Source: Candidatus Thermoplasmatota archaeon (GTDB lineage: Archaea > Thermoplasmatota > Thermoplasmata > RBG-16-68-12 > JAGMCJ01). From it: a stretch of 54,721 bases of DNA. The notes under the pieces were generated by a model, which made no database searches, was not told the origin of the DNA, and worked only from the letters and a program-made list of their open reading frames with translations. Every line of letters begins with the position of its first letter. The first letter of the stretch is position 1. The stretch is taken from the NCBI GenBank assembly GCA_022848865.1, contig JAJISE010000008.1, positions 1 through 54,721 on the forward strand, in the 5' to 3' direction. Positions 2,698 through 54,721 of the stretch are shown here, piece after piece. The position numbers and the translations under genes were made by a program.

Positions 2698-3594
2698 ATG
2701 GCAAAGAAGTCCCGAACAGCTGCACGGAAAGTCAAGGACAAATGGAAGTCCAAGACGTGGTACAACATCATTGCGCCCGAGATGTTCGACAGCCGCATCC
2801 TCGGCGAGACCCCAGCGGACTCGCCCGAGAAGCTGATCAATCGCGTGACGGAGGTGACAGTGCAGGACATCACAGGCGACTTCAGCAAGATGCATATCAA
2901 GCTCAGGTTCAAGGTCCACGACGTGAGGGGAGGCGACGCCTACACGTACTTCATCGGTCACGACATGACGAGCGACTACATCCGAAGGCTCACTCGCAGG
3001 AAGAAGTCGAGAACGGACGGGACGTTCGACGTGATGACCAAGGATGACAACCTCATCAGGATCAAGCCCATGGCGATCGCGGAAAGGAGGATACAGTCCT
3101 CGAAGCAGTCAGCCATCAGGAAGAAGATGGAGGGCATAGTGAGGTCCGAAGCCTCCGGGAAGATCCTCAGCGAGCTGGTCCGGGTGATGATCATGGGAGA
3201 GATGTCCAAGAAGATCGCCGTGGCGTGCAGGAGCATCCAGCCGTTGCAGAGGGTCGAGATTCGCAAGTCTGAACTGTTGAGGATATCCAAGCTTCCCGAC
3301 ATCCCCGAGAAGGCGCCGGAGGAGGAGCCTGAGGAGCCACCCGCCACCGAAGAGCCGGAGGAGGGCGAGGAGCCCGCTGAAGAGACTCCCGAGGAGCCTG
3401 AGGCCGCGGAAGAGACGCCGGAGACCGCCCCCGAGGAATCCGATGTAGCGGAAGAGGCGCCTGAAGAGACTCCGGAAGAAGCCCCGGAAGAGGCTCCAGA
3501 GGAGCCCGAGGTTCCGGAAGAGCCGGTGGAAGCCTCCGAGGAAACGGTCGAGCCCGCGGAAGATGTCGAGGAAGAGGAACCCGCCGAGTCCTAG
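2698..3594 (+). CDS. rps3ae: 30S ribosomal protein S3Ae (eS1) with long acidic C-terminal tail
   Basis: Residues 1 to about 203 match archaeal/eukaryotic S3Ae (eS1): a basic N-terminus, then segments such as WKSKTWYNIIAPEMF, FKVHDVRGGDAYTYFIGHD and KPMAIAERRIQSSKQSAIR. eS1 sits on the platform of the small subunit near the mRNA exit. Usual archaeal length is about 195-230 residues; here a further roughly 95 residues are almost entirely Glu, Pro, Ala and Thr in short EEAPEE-like repeats. Start and SD (CGGAG) are clear. The tRNA-Met begins one base after the stop codon, so the two may share a transcript. The tail is encoded in frame without break and is probably disordered; its role is unknown. 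Confidence 0.95.
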   Translation: MAKKSRTAARKVKDKWKSKTWYNIIAPEMFDSRILGETPADSPEKLINRVTEVTVQDITGDFSKMHIKLRFKVHDVRGGDAYTYFIGHDMTSDYIRRLTRRKKSRTDGTFDVMTKDDNLIRIKPMAIAERRIQSSKQSAIRKKMEGIVRSEASGKILSELVRVMIMGEMSKKIAVACRSIQPLQRVEIRKSELLRISKLPDIPEKAPEEEPEEPPATEEPEEGEEPAEETPEEPEAAEETPETAPEESDVAEEAPEETPEEAPEEAPEEPEVPEEPVEASEETVEPAEDVEEEEPAES

Positions 3595-36288: not shown

Positions 36289-37020
36289 ATGGGTACCACT
36301 GGTTTTAATCAGCTTGGGAACAAGGCTTTGCAGGAGCATTGGCTGAGGAGATTCGTTGCCATCATAATAGACAACATCATCGTATGGATACCTCTTTTCA
36401 TCCTCAGCTTCTTTCCATTCTTCTGGTTCTTCGGAATCTGGACATGGGGATGGCTGGGCCAGTCCGTCTTCTTCTTCCTTTACTGCGTTGTCCTCGAGAT
36501 CTCCATGGGCGCAACGATCGGGAAGAGACTCATGAGCCTGCATGTCGTCGGCATACAGGAGCAGCGGACTCCAATGATGATCCTCGTGAGGAACGTCTCC
36601 AAGATATTCGGCCTACTGCTGATCCTCGATTGGCTCGTCGGCATGCTCACGCCTGGAGATCCGAGGCAGAAGTACACCGACAGGATGATTGGCTGCACCG
36701 TTGCGAGGACGGATGAAAAGGCCTATATGGAGGAGCAGTTCAGGGTGGCTCAGTTCTACCGACCACCTCCCGCTCACGGATACCAGCCCTATCAGCAGCA
36801 ACCCCAGCAGCAGCCTTACCAACAGCAACCATATCAGCAGCAACCCCAGCAGCAGCCCCAGCAGCAACCGTACCAGCAGCCACCCGCGACAGGCGGGGGC
36901 TGGGGTGAACAGCCGGAACAGACCGGACCACAGCCCAAGTACTGTCAAAGCTGCGGTGGTCCGCTGAATGTCAGGCCCGACGGCAGATTGCAGTGCCCCA
37001 GTTGCGGCGCGATGTACTAG
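36289..37020 (+). CDS. RDD family membrane protein with poly-Gln linker and zinc ribbon
   Basis: Residues 8 to about 140 are an RDD domain (HWLRRFVAIIIDNIIVWIPL, SMGATIGKRLMSLHVV, TDRMIG) with about four membrane segments. A flexible linker from about 160 to 205 is nearly all Gln, Pro and Tyr in YQQQP repeats. The last 35 residues form a zinc ribbon, CQSCGG and CPSCGA. ATG 36289 is preferred; AGGTGAT precedes it. The leader contains a 7-bp inverted repeat TGCCTAC/GTAGGCA (36244 and 36272). Function unknown. It overlaps the purP stop. Confidence 0.8.
   Translation: MGTTGFNQLGNKALQEHWLRRFVAIIIDNIIVWIPLFILSFFPFFWFFGIWTWGWLGQSVFFFLYCVVLEISMGATIGKRLMSLHVVGIQEQRTPMMILVRNVSKIFGLLLILDWLVGMLTPGDPRQKYTDRMIGCTVARTDEKAYMEEQFRVAQFYRPPPAHGYQPYQQQPQQQPYQQQPYQQQPQQQPQQQPYQQPPATGGGWGEQPEQTGPQPKYCQSCGGPLNVRPDGRLQCPSCGAMY
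36781..36884 (+). repeat. CAG/CCN-rich codon repeat (poly-Gln/Pro linker)
   Basis: In-frame repeats of about 15 bases encode YQQQP and PQQQP units within the RDD gene. Slippage here could change linker length between strains. Confidence 0.7.
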
Positions 37021-48275: not shown

Positions 48276-48394
48276 CCAGTAGGTCAATTGCAGCTAAAGG
48301 CCCCAGTGGACCGTCTAGAGTCTAACTTGCAGGATTGCGGTTTTTCTTTGGAAGGGGGGAAGGGGTACGAAACGACGCAGAGGAGTGGGTTAGT

Positions 48395-51300
48395 TTGACG
48401 AAATGGACTGCTATTCTACAGCAGACAAGGAGAGCCAGGTCTATATCGATTGTTGTTGTCCTTATTCTTGGCACTCTGGTAATGGCTGCACAGCAACAAG
48501 AGGAAGGGCAAGGGGAATCACCACCGAATTGGAACGTAGCCGATTGGGTGAACTACACCTTTGATGGAGAGAGGATCCGTGATTGGGAGGACAAACCCTA
48601 CGAGACAGATCCCACACATGGTCCCGCTGATGTCAACCCAGACGCGGTGGATATCGCATCTGGTGTCGACGCCACGGGCGGTGGTCCCGAGAACAATCCA
48701 GGTGAGTACACGTCTGTCCAGTACTACTACTATGATGAGTATGGTGACAGCGACGGCTTCACAAACATCGACGACGACTGGATGTTTCTCAGGATGCGGG
48801 TCGCGGGTGATCCCACGCACGGTGGGAAATACGCCTACAAGGCCTACCATTGGGACATCCTCTTCGAGTTCGACTATGACGAGTGGAAGGAGCTTGTCGT
48901 CGACCTCAACGGGGGCAACGGACACTATAAGTTCGGCACAGTAGGAACCTATTACAACAATTCGGACACGCATAGATACGATCCGGATAACGACTGGATC
49001 TGGAGAGAGGAGGCCAGTGGGAACTCGAATCATTACACACGGGTCACGGACATCGATTATGGCACCGGAGATCCTGATGATAATCAATGGTGGATTGAGT
49101 ACATGATACCCGTCACAGCCTTCGAGTCCGGCGATGGAGACCCGCTCATGGGGAAAGATACGTACTTCCTCCTGTTCTTCAGCACCTCTGCGTCGCTGAC
49201 GAATCCTCTGCAGAAGGACTGGATGGGAGAGTTCGTGTTCGGGGAGCCGGCAAACCTTACGGTTGCGAAGGTCGCTCAGGAGGAGATAGTCTCCCCGGGT
49301 GACACTATTCACTATACTATGTATTACAACAACACGGGAGACTTCCTATCGAAGTACGTCTGGGTGAACGACACCATTCCCGCGGGAACGACGTACGAGA
49401 GCGCCTACCCTGCTCCGGACTCAATCGATGGGAGCGTCATCAGGTGGTACTTCGAGGACGTTCTTCCCGGAAACCACACCATCCTTCTGAACGTGACGGT
49501 CGGTCCTGACATAGGTGACGGCACGATCCTCACGAACTATGTCTATCTCAACTTCACGGACTCGACCGGCGGATACGTGGGCGAGGTCTGGGACAGCGTG
49601 GATGTCCTCGTAACGGGACCCACAATGGAGTTCTCAAAGGCCGCCAACGTTGAGTATGCGGATCCTGGTGACACAATAACCTACACGCTCACATATTCGA
49701 ACGTCGGGGCGGGGACGGCCACGGATGTCACGATCGTCGACATGATCCCGTCAGAGACCACATTCGTGGACTCAACTCCGATGTACGATGAAGTGGACGG
49801 AGACACATACACGTGGTATATCGGGACCGGGTCAGGGTACACGACTGGATATGTCTACATCGATGTCACAGTGGACGCCTACACCGAGAACGGAACGCTC
49901 CTCGTCAACTATGCTACCATGGACTTCGATGACGTGAACGGCAATCCGCAGGACCAGCTGGATGACTATGCCAACGTAACCGTGACCGCTCCACTTATGA
50001 CTGTATCGAAGGTCGCCGATGTGGAATATGCTGACCCAGGCGACACGATCGTCTACACGATAACGTATGAGAACACACTGACTGGTACTGCTACGGATGT
50101 CGTCGTCGAGGACGTCATACCGAGCTACACCACGCTTGTTGAGACCAATCCGATGTACGACGACTTCGATGGTTCAACGATTACCTGGCTACTCGGAGAA
50201 GTCCCTGGAGGCTCAGGCGGAACGATCACTGTAACGGTGACTGTCGACGCCTTCACGCCAGATGAGACAGTTCTTACCAACCTTGTGATGCTCAACTACG
50301 ATGACGCGAATGGTAACCCCTATCCGATGGAGAGCGACACGGCAACGGTTGTCGTGACCGCACCGATTATGTCGTTCTCGAAGGAAACCGATGCCGATTA
50401 CGCGGATCCGGGGGACACAATCACGTATTGGCTCAACTACTCGAACGATGGAACGGGACTTGCGACGGATGTCACGGTCGTGGATGTTATACCATCAGAC
50501 ACGACGTTCATCTCGTCCGATCCTTCATACACATCGCATGATGGTGACACGTACACATGGTTAGTGGGAGATGTCTCCTCTGGAGGTTCAGGCACGATAA
50601 CCGTTCAGGTTCAGGTGGACGCTGGAACAGCAGATGGCACTGAGCTCACTAACTACGCAACCCTGGACTATGATGACGCGAACGGGAACCCGCAGCCTCA
50701 GCTGGACGATAGCACGACTACCTTCGTCACTGCCCCAGTCATGACCGTGACAAAGACGGCCAATGTCGACTTCGCTGACCCGGGAGACCAGATAGTCTAT
50801 TCGATCTTCTACGAGAACACGGGGACTGGATGGGCGACAAATGTGGTGATACAGGACACCATTCCCGAGCATGTGACATTCATCAGTTCCAACCCAGCGT
50901 ACACGAGTGTCGATGGCAGGACCTACACCTGGGAGATAGGCGATGTTGGTCCGAGTTCCAGTGGCACCGTCACCATCACCGTCGAGGTCGATGCGGGAAC
51001 ATCTGATGAGATCGTACTCACGAACTACGTGCTCCTCCAGTACCAGGACAACAATGGCAACGATATGCCCGATGAGGAGGACAGTGCAACGGTCACCGTG
51101 ACCGCCCCAGTGATGACGTTCAGCAAGACTGTCGACATCGGCTACGCGGACCCAGGCGACGAGATTACGTATACTCTGAGCTATGAGAATGTTGGGACTG
51201 GCGTGGCAACGGATGTCGTCGTCACGGATACGATCCCAGAGCACACTACCTATGTGAGCTCCAGTCCGACCTACGACCAGGTGAGTGATCGCACGTATAC

Positions 51301-54300
51301 TTGGAACGTCGGGACCGTTCAGCCCGGTGCAGGAGGTTCGATAACCCTTGTCGTCGAGGTCGATGCGGGAACTGCTGACGAGACAGTGCTCACAAACACC
51401 GGCACACTGGACTACGACGATGCAAATGGGAACCCCCTGCCTCAACTAACCGATACCGCCGAAACCACGGTCACCTCGCCGATAATGTCACTCTCCAAGG
51501 AGGCTGACGTGGAGTACGCCGACCCAGGGGACAGCATTGTCTACACGATATCCTACTACAACCATGGCACTGGTGTCGCCACCGATGTGACAATCGTGGA
51601 TACGATTCCATCCGATACCACCTTCCAGAGCGCATCGCCCTCACCGGATAACGAGAACGGCGATGTTCTGACTTGGTATGTGGGAATCGTGGATGCCGAC
51701 TCAGGCGGAACGATAACAGTGACAGTGACCGTTGATGCGTTCACACCCGATGAGACAGTTCTCAACAACACCGTCACGCTCGACTATGACGACGCAAACG
51801 GGAATCCTTACGACCAGCTCTCAGACTATGCGGTAACGTTCACAACGGCCCCGATCATGACCGTGACGAAGGTGGCCGACGTGGAATACGCGGATCCCGG
51901 CGATACCATCATGTACACCATCACGTACACGAACTCCGGGACCGGATCTGCCACCAACGTCGTCATCGAGGATACGATACCGCCAGAGACCACATTCCAG
52001 AATTCCAATCCCACCTACACATCCGTGAGCGGAGACACGTACACGTGGGATATCGGAACAGTAGGTCCAGGCGTTACTGGACACATCTACATCAACGTGA
52101 CAGTGGACGCAGGAACTCCAGATCAGACCGTGATGACCAACTTCGTCGTTCTGAACTATGAGGACAACAACAGCAATGAGCAACCGGAAGAGGACGACAG
52201 TGTGGACGTGACAGTCACTGCACCCGTCATGACCATCGACAAGGTTGCGGATGTGACCACGGCCGATCCCGGTGATTACATAGAGTACACAATTACGTAT
52301 GAGAACACAGGGACAGGCGATGCCACCGACGTGACGATAGTGGACACGATTCCGGCGGAGACCACCTTCATCGATTCGGATCCCGACTACACGTCTCAGA
52401 GCGGGGACACCTACACATGGGAGGTCGGCGATGTCGGAGCTGGTGATAGCGGGACCATTTCGGTCACCGTTCAGGTTGATGTCGGAACAGCTGACGGCAC
52501 GGTCTTGACCAACACGGTCGTCATGAACTATGACGATGCCAATGGGAACCCGATTCCGGAGGAGTCTGACAGCGTAGATGTCACAGTCACGGCTCCGATA
52601 ATGACGATCAGCAAGTCCGCGGATGTCAGTACCGCCGACCCAGGCGATTCCATTACATACACGATAGAGTACGAGAACACTGGAAGCGGACAGGCCACAG
52701 GTGTTGTGGTCAAGGACACGATACCTGCTGATACGACATTCAGCAGTTCAAGTCCAACCTACGACGAGGTGAGTGGAGACACGTACACCTGGAACATCGG
52801 CATTGTTGACGCATACAGCAGCGGAACGATAACCGTTGTTGTAACTGTCGATGTCGGAACTGCTGACGGCACCGTCCTCACGAACAGCGTGACGCTGGAT
52901 TACGACGATGCCAATGGGAACCCGTACCCGCAGGAAAGCGACTCCGTGGATGTTACTGTAACGGCTCCGATAGTGTCGTTCAGCAAGTCCGTTGACAAGA
53001 GCCAGGCGAATCCTGGTGACACGCTCGTCTACACGCTTTCGTATGAGAACACCGGAACTGGCTGGACAACCGGCATTGTCGTGAATGACACGATACCCGA
53101 GGATACAACCTTTGTCAGCTCTGACCCAAGCTACGATTACAACGACGGTGATCTCTACTCGTGGGATGTTGGAAGCCTTGGCCCCGGAGCAAGCGGAACG
53201 ATAACGATTACCGTGACCGTGGATGCCTACACTCCTGACGGGACAACCCTTCTCAACACAGCGACACTCGACTATGCGGATGCAAACGGTAACTACTATC
53301 CTCAGCTGAGTGACGATGCAGAAACAACAGTCACCGGGCCCGTGATGACAATCGAGAAGTCCGCCGATGTCACAAGTGCTGACCCAGACGATACGATTGT
53401 CTACACAATCACCTATGAGAACATTGGAAGCGGCGATGCTACCGATGTGGTTGTGCAGGATACGATTCCTGCAGACACTACGTTCGTTAGCGCGAGCCCC
53501 TCTCCTGATCAGCAGATCGGGGATGTCTTCACATGGAACATTGGGACCGTAGCAGGGGAGTCAAGTGGAACGATAACACTGACAGTGACCGTTGACGTGG
53601 GCACTCCCGATGGCACGCTTCTTCACAATGTTGTGACGCTGAACTATGATGATACAAATGGCAATCCTCAGGATGAGGAGACTGACTATGCCGATGTGAC
53701 ATGCACTGCTCCAGTGATGACATTCAGCAAGACCGCGGATGTCACCTCAGCCGATCCCAGCGACACCATCGTGTACACTCTCGAATACGAGAACGCGGGA
53801 AGCGGTATCGCCACGGATGTTGTCGTCACGGACACGATCCCAGCAGACACAACGTTCGTCAGCTCCGACCCGTCCTATGACAGCGTCTCCGGTGACACCT
53901 ACACGTGGAACATCGGGACCTTGGGAGCCTACACCAGCGGAACCATCACGGTAACGGTCACAGTAGATGTCGGCGTTGCTGATGGAACACTCCTGCATAA
54001 CACCGCCACTTTCGACTATGATGACGCCAACGGTAACCCATATGATCAGCTCACTGATCACGCGGACGTCACTGTCACAGCTCCTGTCATGACATTCAGC
54101 AAGACCGCGGATGTCACCTCAGCCGATCCCAGCGACACCATCGTGTACACTCTGACGTACATCAACAGTGGAAGCGGTGTGGCGACAGACGCCGTCGTGA
54201 CAGATACAATACCCGCCGATACAACGTTCGTGAGTTCCAATCCAGCCTACGACGACGTGAGCGGAGACACCTACACGTGGAACATCGGAATCGTGGGAGC

Positions 54301-54721
54301 CTATTCGAGCGGAACGGTAACGATAACCGTAACCGTGGACGCTGGAACGGACGATGGAACGCTGCTCCATAACGAAGCCACACTCGACTACGATGACGCG
54401 AACGGTAACCCGTATCCTCAGCTCTCGGATTATGCGGATGTTACGGTCACAGCACCCATCCTGAATGTCACGAAGACAGCGGATGTATCCACGGCCGATC
54501 CCGGCGATGAGATAACCTACACGATTGTGTTCGAGAATACTGGCACGGGCAACGCAACGAACGTCTGGATAAATGACACGATTCCTTCGGATACGACTCT
54601 TGTGAGCACAACACCGTCCTACGATTCCAGTGATGGTGACACGTACATGTGGCACTACGATCTCGTCGAGAGCGGAACTTCAATAACGATTACCATTGTG
54701 GTTGAGGTCGATGTCGGAACA
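48395..54721 (+). CDS. Giant secreted surface protein with DUF11 repeats, 3' end outside window
   Basis: The frame stays open for 2109 codons to the window edge and is the largest gene here. The N-terminus is a signal peptide (TTG start; RRARSISIVVVLILGTLVMA, then QQQEEG). Residues about 40-285 are a non-repeated Trp/Tyr/Asp-rich beta domain (similar to DOMON/CBM9-like folds, unproven). From about residue 290, DUF11 domains follow: first 123 residues, then 13 full units of exactly 124 residues, and a 15th cut by the window end. Each has YADPGDTI-YT, TDV--DTIP--TTF and a D-Y-D-D-A-N-G-N loop. The gene has no Cys-rich or transmembrane part visible; an anchor is probably at the missing C-terminus. 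Confidence 0.92.
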   Translation, partial: MTKWTAILQQTRRARSISIVVVLILGTLVMAAQQQEEGQGESPPNWNVADWVNYTFDGERIRDWEDKPYETDPTHGPADVNPDAVDIASGVDATGGGPENNPGEYTSVQYYYYDEYGDSDGFTNIDDDWMFLRMRVAGDPTHGGKYAYKAYHWDILFEFDYDEWKELVVDLNGGNGHYKFGTVGTYYNNSDTHRYDPDNDWIWREEASGNSNHYTRVTDIDYGTGDPDDNQWWIEYMIPVTAFESGDGDPLMGKDTYFLLFFSTSASLTNPLQKDWMGEFVFGEPANLTVAKVAQEEIVSPGDTIHYTMYYNNTGDFLSKYVWVNDTIPAGTTYESAYPAPDSIDGSVIRWYFEDVLPGNHTILLNVTVGPDIGDGTILTNYVYLNFTDSTGGYVGEVWDSVDVLVTGPTMEFSKAANVEYADPGDTITYTLTYSNVGAGTATDVTIVDMIPSETTFVDSTPMYDEVDGDTYTWYIGTGSGYTTGYVYIDVTVDAYTENGTLLVNYATMDFDDVNGNPQDQLDDYANVTVTAPLMTVSKVADVEYADPGDTIVYTITYENTLTGTATDVVVEDVIPSYTTLVETNPMYDDFDGSTITWLLGEVPGGSGGTITVTVTVDAFTPDETVLTNLVMLNYDDANGNPYPMESDTATVVVTAPIMSFSKETDADYADPGDTITYWLNYSNDGTGLATDVTVVDVIPSDTTFISSDPSYTSHDGDTYTWLVGDVSSGGSGTITVQVQVDAGTADGTELTNYATLDYDDANGNPQPQLDDSTTTFVTAPVMTVTKTANVDFADPGDQIVYSIFYENTGTGWATNVVIQDTIPEHVTFISSNPAYTSVDGRTYTWEIGDVGPSSSGTVTITVEVDAGTSDEIVLTNYVLLQYQDNNGNDMPDEEDSATVTVTAPVMTFSKTVDIGYADPGDEITYTLSYENVGTGVATDVVVTDTIPEHTTYVSSSPTYDQVSDRTYTWNVGTVQPGAGGSITLVVEVDAGTADETVLTNTGTLDYDDANGNPLPQLTDTAETTVTSPIMSLSKEADVEYADPGDSIVYTISYYNHGTGVATDVTIVDTIPSDTTFQSASPSPDNENGDVLTWYVGIVDADSGGTITVTVTVDAFTPDETVLNNTVTLDYDDANGNPYDQLSDYAVTFTTAPIMTVTKVADVEYADPGDTIMYTITYTNSGTGSATNVVIEDTIPPETTFQNSNPTYTSVSGDTYTWDIGTVGPGVTGHIYINVTVDAGTPDQTVMTNFVVLNYEDNNSNEQPEEDDSVDVTVTAPVMTIDKVADVTTADPGDYIEYTITYENTGTGDATDVTIVDTIPAETTFIDSDPDYTSQSGDTYTWEVGDVGAGDSGTISVTVQVDVGTADGTVLTNTVVMNYDDANGNPIPEESDSVDVTVTAPIMTISKSADVSTADPGDSITYTIEYENTGSGQATGVVVKDTIPADTTFSSSSPTYDEVSGDTYTWNIGIVDAYSSGTITVVVTVDVGTADGTVLTNSVTLDYDDANGNPYPQESDSVDVTVTAPIVSFSKSVDKSQANPGDTLVYTLSYENTGTGWTTGIVVNDTIPEDTTFVSSDPSYDYNDGDLYSWDVGSLGPGASGTITITVTVDAYTPDGTTLLNTATLDYADANGNYYPQLSDDAETTVTGPVMTIEKSADVTSADPDDTIVYTITYENIGSGDATDVVVQDTIPADTTFVSASPSPDQQIGDVFTWNIGTVAGESSGTITLTVTVDVGTPDGTLLHNVVTLNYDDTNGNPQDEETDYADVTCTAPVMTFSKTADVTSADPSDTIVYTLEYENAGSGIATDVVVTDTIPADTTFVSSDPSYDSVSGDTYTWNIGTLGAYTSGTITVTVTVDVGVADGTLLHNTATFDYDDANGNPYDQLTDHADVTVTAPVMTFSKTADVTSADPSDTIVYTLTYINSGSGVATDAVVTDTIPADTTFVSSNPAYDDVSGDTYTWNIGIVGAYSSGTVTITVTVDAGTDDGTLLHNEATLDYDDANGNPYPQLSDYADVTVTAPILNVTKTADVSTADPGDEITYTIVFENTGTGNATNVWINDTIPSDTTLVSTTPSYDSSDGDTYMWHYDLVESGTSITITIVVEVDVGT
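49622..54721 (+). repeat. Tandem 372-bp DUF11 repeats, 13 full units plus a partial one
   Basis: Unit starts at 49622, 49994, 50366, 50738, 51110, 51482, 51854, 52226, 52598, 52970, 53342, 53714, 54086 and 54458: each step is exactly 372 bases, with no insertion or deletion, although the units differ at many bases. The units starting at 53714 and 54086 share a stretch of about 60 identical bases near their 5' ends, indicating recent duplication or gene conversion. Confidence 0.93.

Follow-up and report, generated by a model that had tools for sequence, protein, structure and literature searches.

The DUF11 domain, which has been solved and renamed CLIPPER, is an Ig domain of CnaA-like type that carries an isopeptide bond between Lys and Asn together with a catalytic Asp; it is usual in the stalks of fibrillar adhesins of bacteria and archaea, and confers resistance to heat and proteolysis (PMC12617251). 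The gene described here shares with these stalks (9IFR, Acinetobacter silvestris B9T28_05395; PMC12617251) the predicted fold, the Lys-Asp-Asn triad at equal spacing, and an N-terminal head followed by a tandem array, with a C-terminal anchor after it in the complete homologues. It differs in being archaeal, in having a head unrelated to any Pfam family, in that its homologues have a transmembrane anchor after PKD domains and not an OmpA-like domain, and in that the triad occurs together with a nearly invariant DxNxN loop in every complete unit, each exactly 124 residues long. The kind of stalk is already known; what is unusual is the strictness of the step in this lineage.

Periscope Proteins (SasG, Rib and Sgo0707; PMC9704523) also have a single-chain, rod-like stalk with its length set by the number of tandem domains, but their repeats are highly identical in DNA and vary within populations, whereas the slots of the present array are stable between species. 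Assignment of this gene as a Periscope Protein was rejected because its units are too diverged (51-78% DNA identity). The C123 rods of streptococcal antigen I/II and the isopeptide pilins (BcpA) likewise consist of Ig-like domains joined head to tail, and three of the present units as modelled superpose on C123; however, a sequence relation was not detected, there are three domains there against 13-29 here, and the anchoring differs. Other DUF11 arrays of the Thermoplasmatota (for example G083:C10 and G053:C31, the latter genome also having the same head) belong to the same domain family but have steps of 112-148 residues, a patchy triad and at most one DxNxN loop per array. Tandem stalk domains are common, but arrays so diverged without a change of length are not, and the other DUF11 arrays of the phylum vary freely.

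The gene and its domains

The window, meaning the whole stretch of DNA that was analysed (54,721 bases), is contig C8 of G000, a 2.03-Mb archaeal genome that is 95.8% complete. Its edge at 54721 is the true contig end, where the gene runs off at its 3' side. The following features were read in the gene.

48335..54721, + strand: open reading frame, 5' end at the first in-frame TTG, no stop up to the contig end
48380..48385, + strand: Shine-Dalgarno-like GAGGAG ahead of TTG 48395, read in the sequence with a comparison of f2 spacing
48395..48493, + strand: putative signal peptide or N-terminal hydrophobic segment TKWTAILQQTRRARSISIVVVLILGTLVMAAQ, read in the translation
48548..49243, + strand: orphan N-terminal head domain of 232 aa that aligns with homologues without gaps at 68-91% identity
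49244..49615, + strand: DUF11/CLIPPER unit 0, divergent, K/D/N triad present, orthologous in all relatives
49616..49987, + strand: CLIPPER unit 1, slot orthologous in the f1, f2 and CP070751 genes
49988..53707, + strand: CLIPPER units 2-11, ten 372-bp units in succession, same slots in G001 and G002
53708..54079, + strand: CLIPPER unit 12
53717..53781, + strand: 65-nt tract identical to 54089-54153, apparently from a recent event between units 12 and 13, either conversion or unequal exchange
54080..54451, + strand: CLIPPER unit 13
54452..54721, + strand: CLIPPER unit 14, 90 aa before the contig end

TTG 48395 is the more likely start than TTG 48335, as its distance to the hydrophobic segment equals that in the f2 homologues and it is preceded by GAGGAG. 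The encoded protein has, in order, the signal-like segment, the head, unit 0, the complete units 1-13 and the partial unit 14. The original prediction was of a DUF11 surface protein, open at the edge and possibly a stalk, and this is supported. The frame continues without a stop to the contig end; the DUF11 profile (PF01345) scores 673.6 bits over 15 stretches, against a curated cut-off of 24.6; and complete homologues consist of a signal sequence, head, array, PKD domains and a transmembrane tail. These complete homologues, from family f2, have 2,583 to 4,563 residues and 13 to 29 units including unit 0, and after the array they carry a domain of ~130 residues, a further DUF11 domain, four PKD domains, a transmembrane segment (read from sequence) and a basic tail. 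Of the parts of a fibrillar adhesin, the signal sequence, N-terminal head and tandem stalk lie in the window, and the anchor is seen only in the complete f2 homologues because the contig ends within the stalk. The gene product is likely to be a stalk protein of the fibrillar-adhesin type that is secreted and anchored in the membrane, the anchoring in this strain being predicted and its adhesin function suggested by the architecture.

The units of the array are CLIPPER (DUF11) Ig-like domains. When a profile of the array was searched against the PDB, 9IFR, the CLIPPER crystal structure, was the sole match at E ≤ 0.01 (E 1.2e-4), with the K, D and N columns aligned; a phmmer query of three units gave no match in the PDB, and 9IFR was reached through the array profile alone. 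For units 8-11, the AlphaFold model had a pLDDT of 97.1 without a drop at the junctions and a pTM of 0.75, and its strands alternate, with nine per unit as in 9IFR. The fourth unit of the model superposed on 9IFR with a VIA-align Z of 13.6 (2.2 Å, 117/123 residues), and three modelled units superposed on the C-terminal three-domain rod of streptococcal antigen I/II with a Z of 14.0 (337 residues, 5.6 Å). In the model, the array units have the CnaA-like Ig fold of 9IFR.

Residues K8, D42, N98, D106 and N110 were present in 129/129 units, and N108 in 128/129. No complete unit of the strict arrays lacks any residue of the Lys-Asp-Asn triad, whereas in the control arrays the triad is patchy; the DxNxN loop is nearly invariant in the strict arrays and occurs at most once per array in the controls. 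The HMMER alignment puts the catalytic Asp 34 residues after the Lys, compared with 33 in the numbering of PMC12617251, and this is taken as a matter of numbering. Judging from sequence, each unit is probably locked by a spontaneous isopeptide bond between Lys8 and Asn98, with Asp42 as the catalyst.

Unit length in a diverged array

The anchors of 14 successive units are spaced by exactly 124 residues (13/13 intervals), and units 1-13 are complete, gap-free and 124 aa each, which confirms the predicted 372-bp repeat of 13 units without an indel. The predicted tally was right for the complete units, but it left out the divergent unit 0 and the partial last one, so the window gene has at least 15 units (unit 0, 13 complete units and a partial fifteenth). 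Unit 0 spans 124 residues, with its core one residue out of register, which gives 123 by the DUF11 register.

The units have diverged, as had been proposed, with identities between them of 48-83% in protein (mean 59) and 51-78% in DNA. Differences between units at the three codon positions are 0.33, 0.27 and 0.63, and third positions are therefore near saturation; the median dS between units is 2.5 (Nei-Gojobori), with 32 of 78 pairs saturated or undefined. Units 12 and 13 share the identical 65-nt tract, which the original prediction had given as about 60 bases common to the units at 53714 and 54086. Elsewhere the two are 73% identical, and the next-longest in-register identity of any unit pair is 21 nt. 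The tract appears to be the mark of a recent exchange and, together with lineages that differ by whole units, it supports the occasional recombination that had been suggested. The dN/dS of the array is about 0.096, compared with 0.13-0.21 for the head, values that indicate strong purifying selection on the array.

Other DUF11 arrays of the phylum, measured with the same profile, served as controls. Their steps ranged over 112-148 residues and none was regular; gap events per 100 substitutions were 2.6-6.8 in the controls and at most 0.3 in the f1 and f2 arrays. On trees, the strict family (125 units from eight proteins) changed length once over about 2,976 substitutions, compared with at least 30 changes in about 5,305 (about 1 per 177) for eight control arrays. 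At the control rate about 17 changes would be expected in the strict family where one was observed, and the Poisson estimate for one or fewer is about 1e-6, a rough figure as divergence is greater in the controls and 124 columns give poorly resolved trees. The window alone had no length change in about 544 substitutions where about three would be expected (P about 0.05). On these figures the family clearly lacks indels, while for the window by itself the effect is marginal. Plasmid DUF11 arrays were also sought as extra controls, and two weak matches only were obtained.

Selection on spacing, which the original prediction had argued from strict length at variable sequence, is supported in part. 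The constraint on length relative to the control arrays and the low dN/dS are in its favour, but the constraint is not absolute, as a few units of 123 or 125 residues occur: G014 has one unit of 123 residues, and CP070751, a more distant relative, has in one gene a few steps of 123 or 125, with a step of 110 farther along the same locus. In addition, the head, which is not repetitive, is likewise without indels over 13-82 substitutions, and given this the strict length may be partly a general trait of the whole protein.

The constant length could instead be mostly historical, with the units derived from one progenitor by in-frame unequal crossing-over, too little time for indels, and spacing under no particular selection. 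Well-packed beta domains seldom acquire indels, and both the indel-free head of the same gene and the marginal shortage in the window agree with such a history. It is harder to reconcile with the saturation of synonymous sites between the units, with the roughly 17-fold deficit of indels across the family, and with control array L069, in which unit identity is near 51% and length already varies. The array is also old. In the unit tree, slot 0 and slot 1 each group across families and the other f1, f2 and CP070751 units interleave; the grouping of these two slots means that the array predates the split of the f1, f2 and CP070751 families. A mostly historical origin of the constant length is considered rather unlikely.

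At the CP070751 locus (about 4.71-4.74 Mb of a 5.16-Mb chromosome), L061 and L063 are adjacent head-bearing paralogues, one with an array of 123- and 125-residue units and the other strict.

Stalk geometry

While the reading of the gene as a stalk is well supported, the reason for its exact step is put forward as a hypothesis. The signal sequence would export the protein, and the N-terminal head would be held away from the cell by at least 15 CLIPPER domains arranged head to tail, with a junction of three residues (Thr-Ala-Pro) and no flexible linker. Anchoring would be through the C-terminal DUF11 domain, four PKD domains and transmembrane helix, as in the complete homologues. Two polar, nearly invariant loops, ADPGD and DxNxN, would lie at opposite ends of each domain, and from the topology of the model ADPGD would be at the C-terminal pole and DxNxN at the N-terminal pole, so that they would meet at each junction. 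It is proposed that, because the junctions are short and these end loops nearly invariant, rise and twist are equal from one unit to the next, which would give a stiff rod; both the rigidity and the junction contacts are predictions. Indels would then break the geometry of the junction and be purged, and the length of the stalk would change by whole units through unequal recombination.

Identical length despite wide divergence suggests that selection holds the stalk geometry fixed. It is more tentatively proposed, as a possibility of lower probability, that the isopeptide-locked domains form a rod specific to this lineage, that their ADPGD and DxNxN loops meet between neighbours, perhaps around a metal ion, that rise and twist are exact, and that selection on this geometry has kept unit length fixed through synonymous saturation. 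An Ig domain is about 4 nm long, which would put a stalk of 15 units at some 60 nm and one of 29 at about 115 nm. As the strict arrays have the triad and loop throughout and in the irregular arrays these are patchy or missing, it becomes testable how a protein rod comes to have a fixed step.

An exact step could also serve lateral assembly, in which stalks lying side by side in a sheet, a bundle or an S-layer-like coat would stay aligned through their identical steps. Such alignment of molecules would call for a step as exact as that seen over 13-29 units, and DUF11 repeats have been noted in proposed archaeal S-layer components (PMC12617251). A fixed lattice is, however, a poor fit to unit numbers of 13 to 29 among relatives and to the two stalk paralogues of unequal length found in one genome, and this reading is improbable compared with that of a single rod of fixed step.

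Relatives, copy number and the head domain

That collapsed or tiled repeats in the assembly created the regularity, a worry named with the original prediction, is very hard to credit and was rejected for everything except the copy number of the window strain: although the window contig and the contigs of four congeners all end in the stalk gene, slots 0-11 of G000, G001 and G002, which were assembled separately, are reciprocal best matches (90-100% protein identity), 29/29 slots match in register between G010 and G005b (family f2), and several complete arrays sit within contigs.

Between G010 and G014, slots 0, 2-10 and the last two are common and the middle differs, and whole units have therefore been gained or lost in the interior of the array. 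Contigs of the genus break within the stalk gene in five of five cases, which makes the copy number of the window strain a lower bound only. Two of the breakpoints are in slot 12, 30 nt into it in G001 and 201 nt into it in G002, and the 65-nt tract of the window strain lies in the same slot; exact repeats longer than an assembly word would account for the breaks there. The array of CP070767 is interrupted by a gap of 100 N, so that this long-read check is not clean.

Within the order, families f1 and f2 both carry the head; it also occurs in CP070751 and CP070739, with a distant version in G053. The named relatives of the gene are metagenome-assembled Thermoplasmata. Profile and sequence searches of the head against Pfam and the PDB gave no match. 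The AlphaFold model of the head was of low confidence, and its Foldseek and VIA matches were discarded because they fell on unit 0 or on low-confidence parts. As the head had no match in plasmids or viral contigs and the array had none in phages, an origin from a mobile element or plasmid was rejected. G053, which is of another class, joins the same head domain (E 1.4e-34) to a DUF11 array that is irregular and has few complete triads (L078, G053:C31:33456-34115 and following), and constitutes a natural control. For the Thermoplasmata of sediments, the gene is a specific candidate for a surface stalk, and its conserved head could be expressed and assayed.

The 3' end of the gene was sought in the G000 contigs with the f2 C-terminal region, and there was no end-to-end match, only sub-domains common to other proteins. 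One of the domains of this region, that of ~130 residues following the array in f2 (L043 and L044, e.g. L044:16746-17175), has counterparts of 45-49% identity in at least six further G000 proteins, on contigs C64, C23, C1, C28, C27 and C11, one of these proteins having a C25 peptidase, PA14 and PKD domains. Also in G000, on contig C7, L046 (2502-6878) encodes a protein of 1459 aa whose parts, as read from its sequence, make an odd set: the N-terminus looks cytoplasmic in type, a tandem repeat of the GLVNG type comes next, and DUF11 domains follow, with a hydrophobic segment at the C-terminus.

Elsewhere in the window, a Gln/Pro-rich tandem repeat (YQQQPQQQP) at 36784-36885 lies in a membrane protein of 246 aa with a C-terminal, zinc-ribbon-like pair of CxxC motifs, and a probable ribosomal protein S3Ae at 2698-3594 has a long, acidic, Glu/Pro-rich C-terminal extension.
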